Shown here piece after piece: positions 6,745 to 13,412 of a DNA stretch of 64,000 nucleotides (positions are counted from its first letter, which is position 1; each line of letters opens with the position of its first letter). The notes beneath the pieces are model-generated. The model saw only the letters and a list, made by a program, of their open reading frames with translations. It was not told where the DNA came from and did no database searches. The DNA is taken from NCBI GenBank assembly GCA_015061815.1, contig SUVW01000003.1, positions 62,001-126,000 of the forward strand, in the 5' to 3' direction. Position numbers and translations under genes: made by a program. This DNA comes from Lentisphaerota bacterium. Lineage in GTDB: Bacteria; Verrucomicrobiota; Lentisphaeria; Victivallales; Victivallaceae.

Positions 6745-7737
6745 ATGAAAAAAAAGATCAGATTTTTTGTACTTGTATTGACAGGGATCACTCTTGCCGG
6801 ATGCAATTGCGCCAATACCCATTATCCTGGACGGCATCTTGAACATGGCCCGAATCCGGATTCAACGGATGCATTTTTCTGCGTACTGGATTTTCTTTTG
6901 TTCCCGCCGGAAAATTGCGAACATCCTCAAACTGTCGTGGTAACAGCTCCGCCGCCGCCACCGCCGCCGCAACCGGTTGTAGTTGCTCCGCCGCCGCCAC
7001 CGCCGCAACCGGTAGTGGTTACTCCTCCTCCTCCGCCGCCGCCGCGTCCGGTAGTGGTTACTCCGCAGCCGGCAGTTGTGGCTCCGGTCCAGCAACAGGT
7101 GGTCGTTCAACAGCAAGTGGTCGTTCAGCAGAGTGCGCCGCAGGTAGTGGTCGTGGAAAAAGAAAAACCCCGTCCGGTCAGACCGGTGGTTGTCAAACCG
7201 CAGCCGGTAGTGAAGCCCAAACCGGTGGTTGTCAAGCCGCAGCCGGTAGTGAGACCCAAACCGGTGGTTGTCAAACCACAGCCGGTAGTGAGACCCAAAC
7301 CGGTGGTTGTCAAACCGCAGCCAATACCAAAACCCAAACCGGAAACTGTCTATAAACCGGTTGTATCCAGACCGTCAACCACCGTCAGCAGACCGTCAAC
7401 CACCGTCAGCAGACCGTCGACCACCGTCAGCAGACCGTCAACCACCGTCAGCAGACCGTCAACCACCGTCAGCAGACCGTCAACCACCGTCAGCAGACCG
7501 TCAACCACCGTCAGCAGACCGTCGACCACCGTCAGCAGACCGTCGACCACCGTCAGCAGACCATCAACCACCGTCAGCAGACCATCAAATGCAGCAGGTG
7601 TCAAACCAGCCAGAGCGACCTCTTTCGCGCCGGCGAAATCATCAAATGTAAACCCCAATGCTGTTTACCAGGTGAAATCATCCGGAACAACCAAACCGGC
7701 AGAAAAAAAGCAGCCTTTCAATGGGGCTGAATGGTGA
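6745..7737 (+). CDS. Proline-rich repeat lipoprotein
   Basis: 330-residue predicted lipoprotein with signal peptide and lipobox LAGC (Cys at about residue 19). After about 45 ordinary residues come polyproline blocks (runs of six to eight Pro separated by QPVVV or RPVVV). Four copies of a 13-residue PVVVKPQPVV(K/R)PK unit follow, then ten copies of STTVSRP and a short tail ending GAEW. Such a chain would be extended and could span the periplasm or project from the outer membrane, like TonB-type or stalk linkers. No binding domain is recognisable. The DNA repeats are in-frame (39 and 21 bp), so copy-number change would alter length without breaking the gene. The lipoprotein call is firm; the role is unknown. 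Confidence 0.88.
   Translation: MKKKIRFFVLVLTGITLAGCNCANTHYPGRHLEHGPNPDSTDAFFCVLDFLLFPPENCEHPQTVVVTAPPPPPPPQPVVVAPPPPPPQPVVVTPPPPPPPRPVVVTPQPAVVAPVQQQVVVQQQVVVQQSAPQVVVVEKEKPRPVRPVVVKPQPVVKPKPVVVKPQPVVRPKPVVVKPQPVVRPKPVVVKPQPIPKPKPETVYKPVVSRPSTTVSRPSTTVSRPSTTVSRPSTTVSRPSTTVSRPSTTVSRPSTTVSRPSTTVSRPSTTVSRPSTTVSRPSNAAGVKPARATSFAPAKSSNVNPNAVYQVKSSGTTKPAEKKQPFNGAEW
7183..7338 (+). repeat. Four tandem 39-bp repeats inside the lipoprotein gene
   Basis: Units at 7183-7221, 7222-7260, 7261-7299 and 7300-7338, each beginning CCGGTGGTTGTCAA and encoding a 13-residue PVVVKPQPVV(K/R)PK unit. The last unit has diverged. Confidence 0.9.
7371..7580 (+). repeat. Ten tandem 21-bp repeats inside the lipoprotein gene
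   Basis: Ten units of ACCGTCAACCACCGTCAGCA plus G, varying only at A/G and G/A positions, encode STTVSRP. Near-identity suggests recent expansion or homogenisation. Because of the repeats several other frames also stay open here; these are not genes. Confidence 0.95.
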
Positions 7738-7753
7738 AATTTCCGCTTTGACC

Positions 7754-7801
7754 GGGGCTGTTGCCAAACCTTAAAGCAAGGTGAGCAACGCCCCCTTTTT
7801 T
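7754..7801. terminator. Terminator between convergent genes, repeat family copy 1
   Basis: GGGGC-T-GTTGC pairs with GCAACGCCCC, with an inner ACCTT/AAGGT stem, followed by TTTTTT at 7796-7801. It sits between the lipoprotein stop (7737) and the stop of the minus-strand regulator (7800-7802). It is very similar to hairpins at 14524 and 23533. Confidence 0.85.
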
Positions 7802-9179
7802 ATATCTTTCCCATTGCCATTTTCACCAACATAAGTGCCGTCCGCAATTTTTTATCCGACCCGGCTGAAGAGAGCGACAGCCGCAAAAAATTTCTCCCCG
7901 GACGGGACAGCACCGTAAATCGGCCGGAGTGCTGGACCTTCACCCCGAAAGCTTCAAACCTGGCCTCGGTTTCCTGCGGCCGGGAAAAATTTTCCGGCAA
8001 TTCGACTGTCCGGAAAAATGCTCCTTCAGCCGCCGCTGTTTCCTCCGGAAAGATCCGGGAAAAGATCCGGTTGGCCCGCAAAGACAGCCGGTATTTTTCC
8101 TGCAGGACATTTTCTGCCTTGCCGCTTAATATCAATTCGGTCATGATCTCGGCATCCAGCGCACTGGTACGTATATTCAGATAAAACAGCCCATTGAGCA
8201 AATCAGTACGGAAACGCTCCGGGAATGCCGCCGCCGTCACCCGCAAGCCGCCGCATAAATAGCGGAGAGTGCCGCAAATATACAAAGTTTGACCGGGAAG
8301 CATGGAATACAGTGAGCGATAACCTTTTCCCGGCGGCAGAATCGCGGTATCATCTTCGATCAGGATCAATCCGTGTTTGCGGATAACTTCAGCTAAAGCA
8401 TATTTGCGTTCACCGGATAAAGTTATCCCGGTGGGATTGGCACAATTAGGCATCAGAAATATTCCGGTAATACGGTGCTTCCGGCACACTTCATCCAGCT
8501 TTTCCGGCAGCATTCCGCCATCATCTCCCGCCACCGGACACAACCGGATATGAGCCAGATGAGCCGTACCGATCAGATTGGCATAGGTAAAATAATCCAC
8601 CGCCAGCGTGTCACCGAGTTTGAATAATGAAAGCAGTGCCGCGCTGATGGCATTTTGGGAACCGGCAAAAAGAGCAGTATGTTCCTCATCACTGACCACA
8701 TCAAATTTTCTCATCCAGTTCACCGCCGCCGCCCGCTGATGCAGATGGCCGAATGAAGCCGTATAACTGTACAATTTTTCCAGATAACCTTTCTTCAATA
8801 CCGCCTCTGTCGCTTCGATGATCTGTTTGTTGACCGTATCAAAACCGTTGACCATCCCCAGATCAAGCAGTTCTCTGTCCTGTCCGTTTTCCCCGGCTTT
8901 CACTCCGGGCAGCGGCGAGACAAAAGTTCCCCGGCCGGTGGAACCGTAGATCAGATGACGCTCCCGGCAGAGATTATAAGCACGGGTGACAGTGGTGAAG
9001 TTTATATCCAGATAATCTGCCAGCTCCCGCTGCGGCGGCAGTTTGGTCCCCGGAGCAAGTTTACCGCTGCGGATATCATCTTCCAGCATATTGGCAATCG
9101 CCAGATAGCAGGGACGGCTCAACACAGCAGCAGAGGGTGTCCAGGAAAGAAAAAAGTTTTTAAATGAATTTACCGGCAT
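7800..9179 (-). CDS. MocR/PdxR-type GntR regulator with aminotransferase-like domain
   Basis: Likely regulator of the divergent pdxST genes. Residues 15-85 are a GntR winged helix (GKLAPGTKLPPQRELADYLD). Residues 110-459 are a fold-type I aminotransferase-like domain with PNCANPTGITLS and LIEDDTAILPPG. In MocR proteins the PLP-binding lysine lies in a GTFSK motif; here the matching stretch reads GTLRYLCGGLR, with Tyr at about residue 307 in place of Lys, so an internal aldimine cannot form in the usual way. I use ATG 9179 (MPVNSF) because upstream frame extensions run through the promoter region. An inverted repeat at 9191-9211 overlaps its transcription start and the pdxS -35, consistent with autoregulation. 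Family placement is firm; control of pdxST is inferred from position. Confidence 0.9.
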   Translation of the reverse strand: MPVNSFKNFFLSWTPSAAVLSRPCYLAIANMLEDDIRSGKLAPGTKLPPQRELADYLDINFTTVTRAYNLCRERHLIYGSTGRGTFVSPLPGVKAGENGQDRELLDLGMVNGFDTVNKQIIEATEAVLKKGYLEKLYSYTASFGHLHQRAAAVNWMRKFDVVSDEEHTALFAGSQNAISAALLSLFKLGDTLAVDYFTYANLIGTAHLAHIRLCPVAGDDGGMLPEKLDEVCRKHRITGIFLMPNCANPTGITLSGERKYALAEVIRKHGLILIEDDTAILPPGKGYRSLYSMLPGQTLYICGTLRYLCGGLRVTAAAFPERFRTDLLNGLFYLNIRTSALDAEIMTELILSGKAENVLQEKYRLSLRANRIFSRIFPEETAAAEGAFFRTVELPENFSRPQETEARFEAFGVKVQHSGRFTVLSRPGRNFLRLSLSSAGSDKKLRTALMLVKMAMGKI

Positions 9180-9190
9180 TTTTGTAATCC

Positions 9191-9211
9191 ATACAATTTC
9201 TGCAATTGTAT
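9191..9211. promoter_or_regulatory. Candidate operator for the MocR/PdxR-type regulator
   Basis: Perfect 8-bp inverted repeat ATACAATT-TCTGC-AATTGTAT. The right arm contains the -35 of the pdxS promoter, and the site lies just downstream of the -10 of the divergent regulator gene. Confidence 0.65.
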
Positions 9212-9233
9212 TTAATATACCACCGGTTATATT
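9206..9233 (+). promoter_or_regulatory. pdxST promoter
   Basis: TTGTAT at 9206-9211 and TATATT at 9228-9233, 16 bp apart. The -35 lies in the operator's right arm. Confidence 0.7.
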
Positions 9234-9242
9234 ATCTGTCAA
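9214..9242 (-). promoter_or_regulatory. Promoter of the MocR/PdxR-type regulator
   Basis: On the minus strand TTGACA (9242-9237) and TATATT (9219-9214) are separated by 17 bp. It overlaps the pdxST promoter back to back. Confidence 0.75.
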
Positions 9243-9325: not shown

Positions 9326-10207
9326 ATGCCTGAAATCACCAGACAACAGGAACTCAACCGCAATCTTGCCGCCATGCTCAAAGGCGGAGTCATCATGGAT
9401 GTCACCACCCCGGAACAGGCCGTTATTGCCGAACAGGCCGGAGCTTGCGCGGTGATGGCCCTGGAGCGCATCCCCGCAGACATCCGCGCCGCCGGAGGTG
9501 TTTCCCGGATGAGTGATCCGGCGATGATCCGCACTATTCAGCAGGCAGTAACCATCCCGGTGATGGCCAAATGCCGCATCGGTCACTTTGCCGAAGCGCA
9601 GATACTTGAAGCCGTTGAGATCGACTATATCGATGAAAGTGAAGTGCTTTCACCGGCCGATGACACTTATCATATTGATAAAAACAAATTCAAGGTCCCT
9701 TTTGTCTGCGGGGCGCGTGATCTCGGCGAAGCACTCCGCCGGATTGCCGAAGGAGCTTCCATGATCCGCACCAAAGGAGAACCGGGCACCGGAGATATCA
9801 TTCAGGCTGTTCGCCACATGCGCAAAATGAATGCTGAAATCCGCCGGATAGTTTCCTTATCCGGGGATGAACTTTATGAAGCGGCCAAAAATCTTCAGGT
9901 GCCTTTGGAATTATTGCAAAGTGTCCATGACAACGGCAAATTGCCGGTCGTAAATTTCGCCGCCGGAGGTATCGCCACCCCGGCCGATGCCGCGTTGATG
10001 ATGCAGCTTGGCGCAGAAGGTGTTTTTGTCGGTTCCGGTATCTTCAAATCCGGCGATCCGGTCAAACGGGCCAGCGCCATCGTCAAAGCTGTAACCAATT
10101 ACACCGATGCCGCCATGCTCGCAGAACTCTCCAGCGATCTCGGAGAAGCGATGGTCGGGATCAATGCCGATGAAATCGCATTGATCATGGAGGAACGCGG
10201 TAAATGA
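9326..10207 (+). CDS. pdxS: Pyridoxal 5'-phosphate synthase lyase subunit PdxS
   Basis: Condenses ribose 5-phosphate, glyceraldehyde 3-phosphate and PdxT-derived ammonia to PLP (DXP-independent pathway). 293 residues, full family length, highly conserved throughout. Visible are [10 protein letters not shown] (catalytic Asp), [30 protein letters not shown] (imine-forming Lys in the MAKC motif) and [12 protein letters not shown] (second catalytic Lys and phosphate loop). An AAAAGGAAAA ribosome-binding site precedes ATG 9326. It overlaps pdxT by four bases (ATGA), indicating translational coupling and a 1:1 complex. Confidence 0.98.
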
Positions 10208-10794
10208 AACTGCATATCGCCGTTCTTGCCCTGCAGGGAGCGTTTGCCGAACACCGGAAAATGCTGGAAAATTCAGGTGCCGATGTTTTTGAATTGCGGT
10301 GCCGTAAAGATCTGGATAAAAAATGTGACGCTCTCGTCCTCCCCGGCGGAGAAAGTACAGTTCAGGGGAAATTGCTGCGGGAATTGGGACTCTTTGAACC
10401 GTTGAAACAGCGTATCGGCAACGGCTTGCCGGTTATGGCGACCTGCGCCGGAGTCATACTTCTGGCAGAGAAACTGGAGGATGACCCTGCGACTCATTTC
10501 GGCACGCTGCCCATTACAGTACGGCGCAACGCTTACGGCCGGCAGCTGGCCAGTTTCTATACCGACGGCCATTTTTCCGGAATAGATGCCCCGGTGCCGA
10601 TGCCATTTATCCGCGCTCCGCAAATCGTCGGATATAATGACAAAACCGAAGTGCTGGCAACCGTCGGCAACTCTCCGGCCGCCGTCCGATTTCACCGGCA
10701 GCTGGCCATGACTTTTCATCCGGAAATCACCGGTAATCCGTCCATCCACCGATATTTTCTGGAAAAAATAGTCCTGCCCGGCCGGAAAAATTGA
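10204..10794 (+). CDS. pdxT: Pyridoxal 5'-phosphate synthase glutaminase subunit PdxT
   Basis: Class I glutamine amidotransferase that feeds ammonia to PdxS. 196 residues, the usual size. Seen are the [16 protein letters not shown] start, LPGGEST (oxyanion/glutamine site), nucleophile Cys in [10 protein letters not shown], and the His-Glu pair in TFHPEIT near the C-terminus. The start overlaps the pdxS stop by four bases. The -35 of the next gene's promoter (10791-10796) overlaps the pdxT stop codon. Confidence 0.98.
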
Positions 10795-12235: not shown

Positions 12236-13096
12236 TCAGTTGAATTTACACTCCCCGGCCCGGCGCATCTGACTGCGGAATTTACCCGGCGGCATCCCTT
12301 TTCTCCGGCTGAATACCCGTGAAAAGTAGAATTGGTCGCAAAATCCGGAAGCAAACGCCACTTCGGCCACTGTCGCTCCGGGATCATCGCGCCACATCTT
12401 TTCCGCAATTTTCAAGCGGGCATCAAGCAGCAGACCTTTGAAACTGGTCTGATAATTATTCCGTAAAAATTGCGAAATCGTCGAAACACTGCGGCCAAGT
12501 TTTTTAGCCATATCCGGCAAGCGGATATCTTCTGAAGCGTGTTTTTCAATGTAAAGGTCGATCTCATTACGCAACCGGTCGCCCTGTAAAACCGCCAGTT
12601 CGCGGACGGCGATATAGTCGATCAGGGTTTTCAAAACTCCCAGTACCGCCTGCAATTTTTCCCCGGTAAAACAGGGTAATTCAAAATAAGCCTGTTTCAT
12701 CCTGTCCCGGAGCTGTTCCGGGATCATCCGCCAATCAGGTTCCGGATCGCCCTCAATGCGGAATTGCCCGAACATCACAAATCCGGCCACCCGGTTGCGT
12801 ACTGTCACCGGAGCCAGACATTCATGCAGTCCGGCGTGACAACGGTAATCCATGATCCTGCCGGTCTGAACCGCTTCCTGCTGCTTGTGGCAATCCATTG
12901 ATACACAACGGTTGTACCCATCCAACTGTTCATGCACCAGCGAACAGAATGTGCAGTTATGCATCTCTTTGCCCCGGCGCAGCGGTTCGCCGGACAGAGA
13001 GAAAAAAGTAACCCGGACATCCAGCAGCGATGCAAAGTCATCCAACAGGCTTTGCACCTCATCACTTAAAAAAAGTTCCATCGGCATATTGCTCAC
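12236..13096 (-). CDS. AraC-family regulator with PocR sensor domain
   Basis: Transcription factor of about 286 residues. Residues 5-165 are a PocR-type ligand domain with its cysteine signature (NCTFCSLVHEQ, RCVSMDC, YRCHAGLHECLAPV). Residues 190-285 are two AraC helix-turn-helix motifs (LPDMAKKLGRSVSTISQFL and VAEVAFASGFCDQFYFSRVF). Start: GGAGGT at 13107-13102 sits 5 bases before GTG 13096 and 14 before ATG 13087; either is possible, whereas the upstream ATG 13114 would place the ribosome-binding site inside the gene. It lies divergent from the NahK-like kinase, across about 315 bp, and may control it or the GltS-type gene. Confidence 0.92.
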   Translation of the reverse strand: MSNMPMELFLSDEVQSLLDDFASLLDVRVTFFSLSGEPLRRGKEMHNCTFCSLVHEQLDGYNRCVSMDCHKQQEAVQTGRIMDYRCHAGLHECLAPVTVRNRVAGFVMFGQFRIEGDPEPDWRMIPEQLRDRMKQAYFELPCFTGEKLQAVLGVLKTLIDYIAVRELAVLQGDRLRNEIDLYIEKHASEDIRLPDMAKKLGRSVSTISQFLRNNYQTSFKGLLLDARLKIAEKMWRDDPGATVAEVAFASGFCDQFYFSRVFSRRKGMPPGKFRSQMRRAGECKFN

Positions 13097-13412
13097 GGTC
13101 CACCTCCATGACATTAATAATCATCCCGCCGGTTATGAAAGCAAAACCTCATTGTCCTGCCGGCAAAATACAATATTTGCCACATATTTCCGCACACATC
13201 CATAAACACAGCTGCCTGCTTTACAAAATCCGGGACGCTATCCGTTATTATAAATATACACCACGTTTGCAGAAAAGTCCATAGTCTTACCGGATTTTAT
13301 ATTGGCAAAGTTGATTTTTCCGGCTATATTATATATGATGAGGAAATTTCAAAACTCCTCAAAAGTTCCTGACATTCATCGTGTGATCAATTGTAAAAAA
13401 GGAGAAAACAGT
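13097..13412. other. Intergenic region between PocR-AraC and kinase genes
   Basis: About 315 bp, AT-rich, no convincing ORF. It holds the kinase promoter at 13311-13339 and short AT-rich stretches suited to regulator binding. I found no long inverted repeat. Confidence 0.6.
13311..13339 (+). promoter_or_regulatory. Promoter of the NahK-like kinase gene
   Basis: TTGATT at 13311-13316, 17 bp, TATGAT at 13334-13339. An additional CTATATTA lies within the spacer. Confidence 0.6.

Follow-up and report, generated by a model that had tools for sequence, protein, structure and literature searches.

A pdxST-linked clade of MocR-type regulators in which the PLP-binding lysine is mostly replaced

Regulators of the MocR type join a GntR winged helix-turn-helix (wHTH) to an aminotransferase class I/II domain, in which a lysine binds PLP. 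The lysine is described as present in all MocR-like regulators (PMC2018728), and GabR Lys312 and Asp279 as conserved in all MocR clusters (PMC6677901). In GabR, Asp279 lies at the pyridine nitrogen and Arg319 at the phosphate, while Arg430 holds the carboxylate of the effector (PMC6917764). Two described groups are among the closest to the regulator considered here. PdxR (Bacillus clausii, Listeria and Corynebacterium; profile NF052282) is likewise a MocR regulator divergent from pdxST, and the intergenic region between the two carries direct and inverted repeats (PMC5320631). According to the same paper, regulators of PLP genes have emerged in many MocR groups and do not cluster on the tree, and separate recruitment to such genes is therefore not new in itself. 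EnuR/EhuR (NF052286) has the same architecture and is associated with ectoine genes; Lys302 of EnuR carries PLP, as determined by mass spectrometry, and the lysine is fully conserved in 278 EnuR proteins (PMC8739950).

The regulator described here stands instead beside pdxST, and lacks the lysine. The window, meaning the whole analysed stretch of 64,000 nucleotides from a Lentisphaerota bacterium (contig SUVW01000003.1), contains the following core genes.

7800 to 9179, minus strand: MocR-type regulator, 459 residues, wHTH and aminotransferase-like domain
9326 to 10207, plus strand: pdxS
10204 to 10794, plus strand: pdxT

The regulator reading frame begins MPVNSF and ends with TAA at 7800-7802 (minus strand). 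Both domains of a MocR protein are present according to Pfam, each above cut-off (GntR wHTH, 49.5 bits; Aminotran_1_2, 46.7 bits). An AlphaFold2 model from 79 aligned sequences has a mean pLDDT of 91.4. Its best Foldseek matches in the PDB include GabR, MppQ, PdxR and LysN, and a second structural aligner ranks aminotransferases first, with GabR and PdxR at Z scores of about 34-35. The genes pdxS and pdxT were identified by Pfam and NCBIfam, above the NCBIfam cut-off. The regulator starts at 9179 and pdxS at 9326, and the divergence from pdxST claimed in the first-pass annotation, a feature of PdxR loci, is thus confirmed.

Directly 3' of pdxT is a GltS-like symporter (PF03616; 10878-12224, plus strand), convergent with an AraC-type regulator carrying a PocR sensory domain (12236-13114, minus strand). 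The regulators L006 and L008 are divergent from a GltS-like transporter, in place of pdxS. The symporter was considered as the B6 transporter of the regulon, and this was dropped as unsupported: 51 of the 78 family genomes carry such a gene, and pdxS is missing from many of these. The product of 6745-7737 (plus strand) is of low complexity, with stretches of proline, repeats of the type PKPVVVKPQPVV and an SRPSTTV repeat run; it has no Pfam match.

Relatives were collected at several levels. The regulator was found in 27 of the 78 family genomes searched (in one only as a fragment), in 37 of 137 genomes in the order search and in 29 of 387 in the phylum search. A named scan contributed its best 80 of 531 matches; one of its two search patterns includes Asn248. 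Identical proteins were counted once, and the fragment L028 and other proteins shorter than 400 residues were left out before counting. Among the matches listed, this gave 91 distinct proteins of at least 400 residues: 48 from a clade of Lentisphaeria, Kiritimatiellae and kin, 42 from Firmicutes, and the outlier L148. Clade rows were assigned from record titles or kinship, the Firmicutes rows from record titles. The clade rows take in L063, from a bin labelled Proteobacteria, and L061, labelled uncultured bacterium. A search of a viral collection found no relative of the regulator. On trees built without the motif columns, the clade forms one side of a branch, with support of 100 on a quick tree and 100/98 on a second tree of 50 rows.

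Within the clade, 38 of the 48 rows show regulator and pdxS in divergent orientation; among the remaining matches listed, four have fewer than 250 bases upstream and six have no pdxS upstream. The association is strong across the 78 family genomes, where 24 have the regulator and pdxS, three the regulator only, four pdxS only, and 47 neither (Fisher p 6e-13). The three regulator-only genomes and two of the four with pdxS only are incomplete (71-84%) or have just part of pdxS. In L043 about 1.1 kb separates the regulator from pdxS, and no operator match was found within 350 bases. The Firmicutes relatives are 41-48% identical to the window protein and have a different divergent neighbour: in 32 of 43 rows (including L148) azlC lies no more than 250 bp away, and in four more it lies at 255-415 bp. 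No pdxS was found in the flanks of these azlC-type relatives. The Bacillus relative L064 has a RidA-type and a PhzF-type gene as divergent neighbours, in place of azlC.

The first-pass label of a MocR/PdxR-type regulator therefore needs to be divided. The MocR part stands on the two domains, whereas the PdxR part fails on the profile score, the pocket type and the azlC-side relatives. Against the PdxR profile NF052282 the regulator scores 122.4 bits, below the cut-off of 320, and descent from PdxR is ruled out by this score and by the pocket type. Its best match of 37 families is the EhuR/EnuR profile NF052286, at 263.9 bits, itself below the cut-off of 480. Fifteen matches to the PdxR profile were above cut-off in the phylum, and 14 loci were examined. 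These have His/Phe-type motifs and no Arg433 (0 of 14), whereas the window regulator has Asn248, Tyr139 and Arg433, and Arg433 is found in 48 of 48 clade members among the matches listed. Of the 30 phylum loci found by the PdxR profile, three have pdxS nearby, within short flanks. Judged by profile score and pocket type, the regulator lies nearer to the EnuR/EhuR group than to PdxR. Since the Firmicutes relatives are also mostly beside azlC, it seems to have arrived at pdxST separately from PdxR.

The positions in the aminotransferase-like domain that concern the cofactor are as follows.

8436 to 8438, minus strand: Asn248, B6 contact
8352 to 8354, minus strand: Asp276, equivalent of GabR Asp279
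8262 to 8264, minus strand: Arg306 (CGC), occupying the position of the PLP-binding lysine
8259 to 8261, minus strand: Tyr307 (TAT), adjoining that slot
8241 to 8243, minus strand: Arg313, equivalent of GabR Arg319
7881 to 7883, minus strand: Arg433, equivalent of GabR Arg430

The PLP-binding lysine, which the first-pass annotation had reported missing, is indeed absent. The residue placed there, a tyrosine at about 307, was however one position off. The slot aligns without a gap, YICGTSKSICSGLR in lysine-bearing relatives against YICGTLRYLCGGLR in the window protein, pairing YICGTSK-SICSGLR with YICGTLR-YLCGGLR. LysN aligns in the same register (YLGSFSK-VLSPGLR), and the EnuR peptide TIYLTTFTK302 matches it on inspection by eye. 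Arg306 thus occupies the aldimine position, and Tyr307 is its neighbour; a register with Tyr307 in the slot was rejected, since it needs a gap for which the relatives give no support. Arg is also found in the seven nearest family relatives (L003-L009, 74-87% identity), and the Arg codons at the slot are all CGC or CGT.

The lysine is absent from 44 of the 48 distinct sequences of the pdxST-linked clade, among the matches listed: the slot holds Met in 25, Arg in 15, Ala in three, Ser in one and Lys in four. It is lysine in all 42 Firmicutes relatives (among the matches listed) and in 29 of 30 other phylum loci found by the PdxR profile and used as a control (MocR proteins, perhaps with plain aminotransferases among them). 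The exception in the control, L184 of genome G277 (L210:7142-8704, minus strand), is a PdxR above the NCBIfam cut-off with Arg in the slot (GTFSRTLAPSLR); no pdxS was found within the 15 kb examined around it. The lysine-less genes are not decaying, since their frames are open and dN/dS in eight pairs is 0.04-0.19.

Both trees require at least three changes between Lys and non-Lys. A single loss, with all lysine-less rows in one clade, was rejected by the AU test (p = 3.9e-6), so the slot residue has changed more than once. Its history is either repeated loss of the lysine or loss plus regain, which look the same on the tree. The first branch within the clade is the lysine-bearing L061. Its regulator gene has an in-frame TAG at codon 124; pdxST is adjacent, and at a distance of 2-3 kb there are matches to azlC (32% identity) and azlD (41%). 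L061 is perhaps a go-between of the pdxST and azlC contexts.

Most of the rest of the pocket has been kept. Among the matches listed, Asn248, Asp276, Arg313 and Arg433 are each present in 44 of 44 lysine-less proteins, and Arg433 in all four lysine-bearing clade members. The two PLP contacts that the first-pass annotation took to be kept, Asn248 (in CANPT) and Asp276 (in IEDD), are among them. Eight pocket positions were matched by residue role to GabR and to kynurenine aminotransferase II. These positions (Tyr139, Gly173, Gln175, Tyr199, Asn248, Asp276, Arg313 and Arg433) are each at least 95% conserved in the 44 lysine-less proteins among the matches listed, against a domain background of 72 of 355 columns; they were picked after the conservation table had been inspected, which means that the count was not made blind. 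Of the columns conserved to at least 95% in the lysine-bearing set, the lysine-less set keeps 7 of 7 at pocket positions and 36 of 74 elsewhere (Fisher p 0.009). Twenty-six sequences from a whole-protein search, which is free of the bias of the Asn248 pattern, have Asn248, Asp276, Arg313 and Arg433 invariant. Close to the slot, positions 278, 279 and 303-305 differ or vary, and 307 varies too. Loss of the equivalent of GabR Tyr281 was considered as a change tied to loss of the lysine and was dropped: the position is already Ile in 37 of 42 lysine-bearing Firmicutes relatives (among the matches listed), and EnuR-group proteins have Ile or Val there (PMC6677901).

The intergenic region contains a conserved site and two candidate promoters.

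9182 to 9211, no strand assigned: putative operator TTGTAATCCATACAATTTCTGCAATTGTAT, between regulator and pdxS, with a shared 16-mer
9206 to 9233, plus strand: likely pdxS promoter, weak -35 TTGTAT within the operator, 16 bp, -10 TATATT, recognised by eye
9214 to 9242, minus strand: regulator promoter-like site TTGACA-17-TATATT, 11/12, from the promoter scan

The 16-mer TTGTAATCCATACAAT opens the site. Among the 45 clade rows with at least 60 upstream bases it is exact in 30, has one or two mismatches in eight and at least four in seven; on the Firmicutes side it is exact in 24 of 43 rows. At up to three mismatches it is a single copy in the source genome (2.5 Mb, 94% complete). Where the regulator is not beside pdxS, the operator has four to six mismatches (L006, L008, L009, L040 and L041) or one (L022). 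In G036 and G023 the regulator and pdxST are on different contigs, and an exact 16-mer still precedes pdxST. The promoter scan gave two sites in the stretch against 0.8 expected, and did not call the likely pdxS promoter. From the promoter-like site at 9242-9214, the regulator's own transcript would start within the operator, a layout that fits self-repression. It fits control of pdxST as well, probably by activation, because the -35 of pdxS is poor.

On the basis of these observations, we propose that the protein is a pdxST regulator on the MocR plan whose aminotransferase-like domain is probably a non-covalent receptor for a B6 phosphate. The missing lysine, the kept pocket, the linkage to pdxST and the operator are observed here; of the readings considered, sensing that involves no Schiff base agrees best with the retained pocket. 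There is a precedent among enzymes: ColD and the E1 sugar 3-dehydratases, also of fold type I, have lost the lysine, have a catalytic His in its place, and hold and use PMP (PMC8987622), although the window protein is a regulator. The lysine-bearing relatives share the operator with the lysine-less ones, which also supports this reading. Some observations speak against it. The four lysine-bearing clade members have the same operator and neighbours, so the role can be filled with the lysine in place, and six of the 48 clade members are not beside pdxS.

The weightiest counter-evidence is that EnuR with Lys302 changed to His loses PLP and represses constantly, while still forming dimers (PMC8739950). 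This favours a protein deaf to any ligand, fixed in the apo state and bound constantly to its operator, with pdxST on, its own level steady, and the pocket serving only to support the fold or the dimer. The activating form of PdxR is indeed apo-PdxR (PMC5320631), and the variability at 303-305 and 307 agrees with such a protein. However, the pocket is kept far above background, including Arg433, which is absent from the PdxR proteins of the phylum, and a regulator with no signal would hardly need such residues. We regard this explanation as unlikely, although it deserves to be taken seriously. Re-tuning of the domain to a quite different ligand, such as an amino acid or keto acid alone, would suit the retention of Arg433 for a carboxylate and the divergence of positions 278-279 and 303-307 from the lysine-bearing set, and is improbable: Arg313 for the phosphate and Asp276 for the pyridine ring are invariant as well, and such a ligand would have no use for them; moreover, the gene adjoins pdxST. 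Covalent PLP binding through a different lysine that has moved into the site, a possibility raised in the first-pass annotation, is very improbable; the window protein is rich in lysines, but a search of the aminotransferase domain of the lysine-less set found none that is newly conserved, and of six columns with Lys in at least 60% of that set, the five within this domain are mostly Lys in the lysine-bearing set too. A sequencing or assembly error can practically be dismissed, since, although many sequences come from metagenome assemblies and L061 has its in-frame stop, the lysine is likewise absent from the seven nearest relatives and across many separate genomes, and dN/dS is low.

For the non-covalent B6 receptor, the following mechanism is suggested. 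The regulator would bind 9182-9211, a site that spans the likely transcription start of its own gene and extends to the -35 of pdxS. Most likely it would repress its own gene, and act on pdxST, probably as an activator. The pocket would non-covalently hold PLP, PMP or an adduct of PLP with an amino acid, and this ligand would shift the dimer and lower pdxST expression at high B6, the effect that PLP has with PdxR. The ancestor would have been a lysine-bearing regulator of the kind now beside azlC in Firmicutes. With the B6 compound acting as the signal itself, instead of assisting an amino-acid signal, the lysine may have become dispensable and been replaced. Among the matches listed, the replacement is Met or Arg in 40 of 44 cases; both resemble Lys in shape.

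A more specific and rather doubtful idea, offered tentatively, is that the ligand sensed is a preformed Schiff base of PLP with an amino acid, or PMP together with a keto acid, so that the regulator would read B6 and amino acid together. It is suggested by the retention of both the B6 pocket and Arg433 for a carboxylate, the latter absent from 14 of 14 PdxR loci of the phylum, and by the fact that without the lysine no internal aldimine would compete. If true, a cofactor would have been made into a pure ligand, and the lysine lost several times for that reason.

Conservation of the lysine in all MocR clusters (PMC6677901) makes the window protein a variant by that feature. No lysine-less MocR clade was found in the literature searched, which was largely open-access, the 2011 and 2018 MocR surveys lying outside it; within this scope, no report describes such a loss in a conserved clade linked to pdxST, while separate recruitment was already known. 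What emerges is a coherent clade of gut Lentisphaeria and kin that is under purifying selection and stands with the genes of PLP synthase; the lysine is replaced in nearly all its members and the pocket mostly kept. It raises the question of how a cell senses PLP without trapping it, for which the lysine-bearing and lysine-less clade members with the same operator are ready natural variants. If the pocket still binds B6, the clade would show how a covalently held cofactor can become a free ligand in nature.
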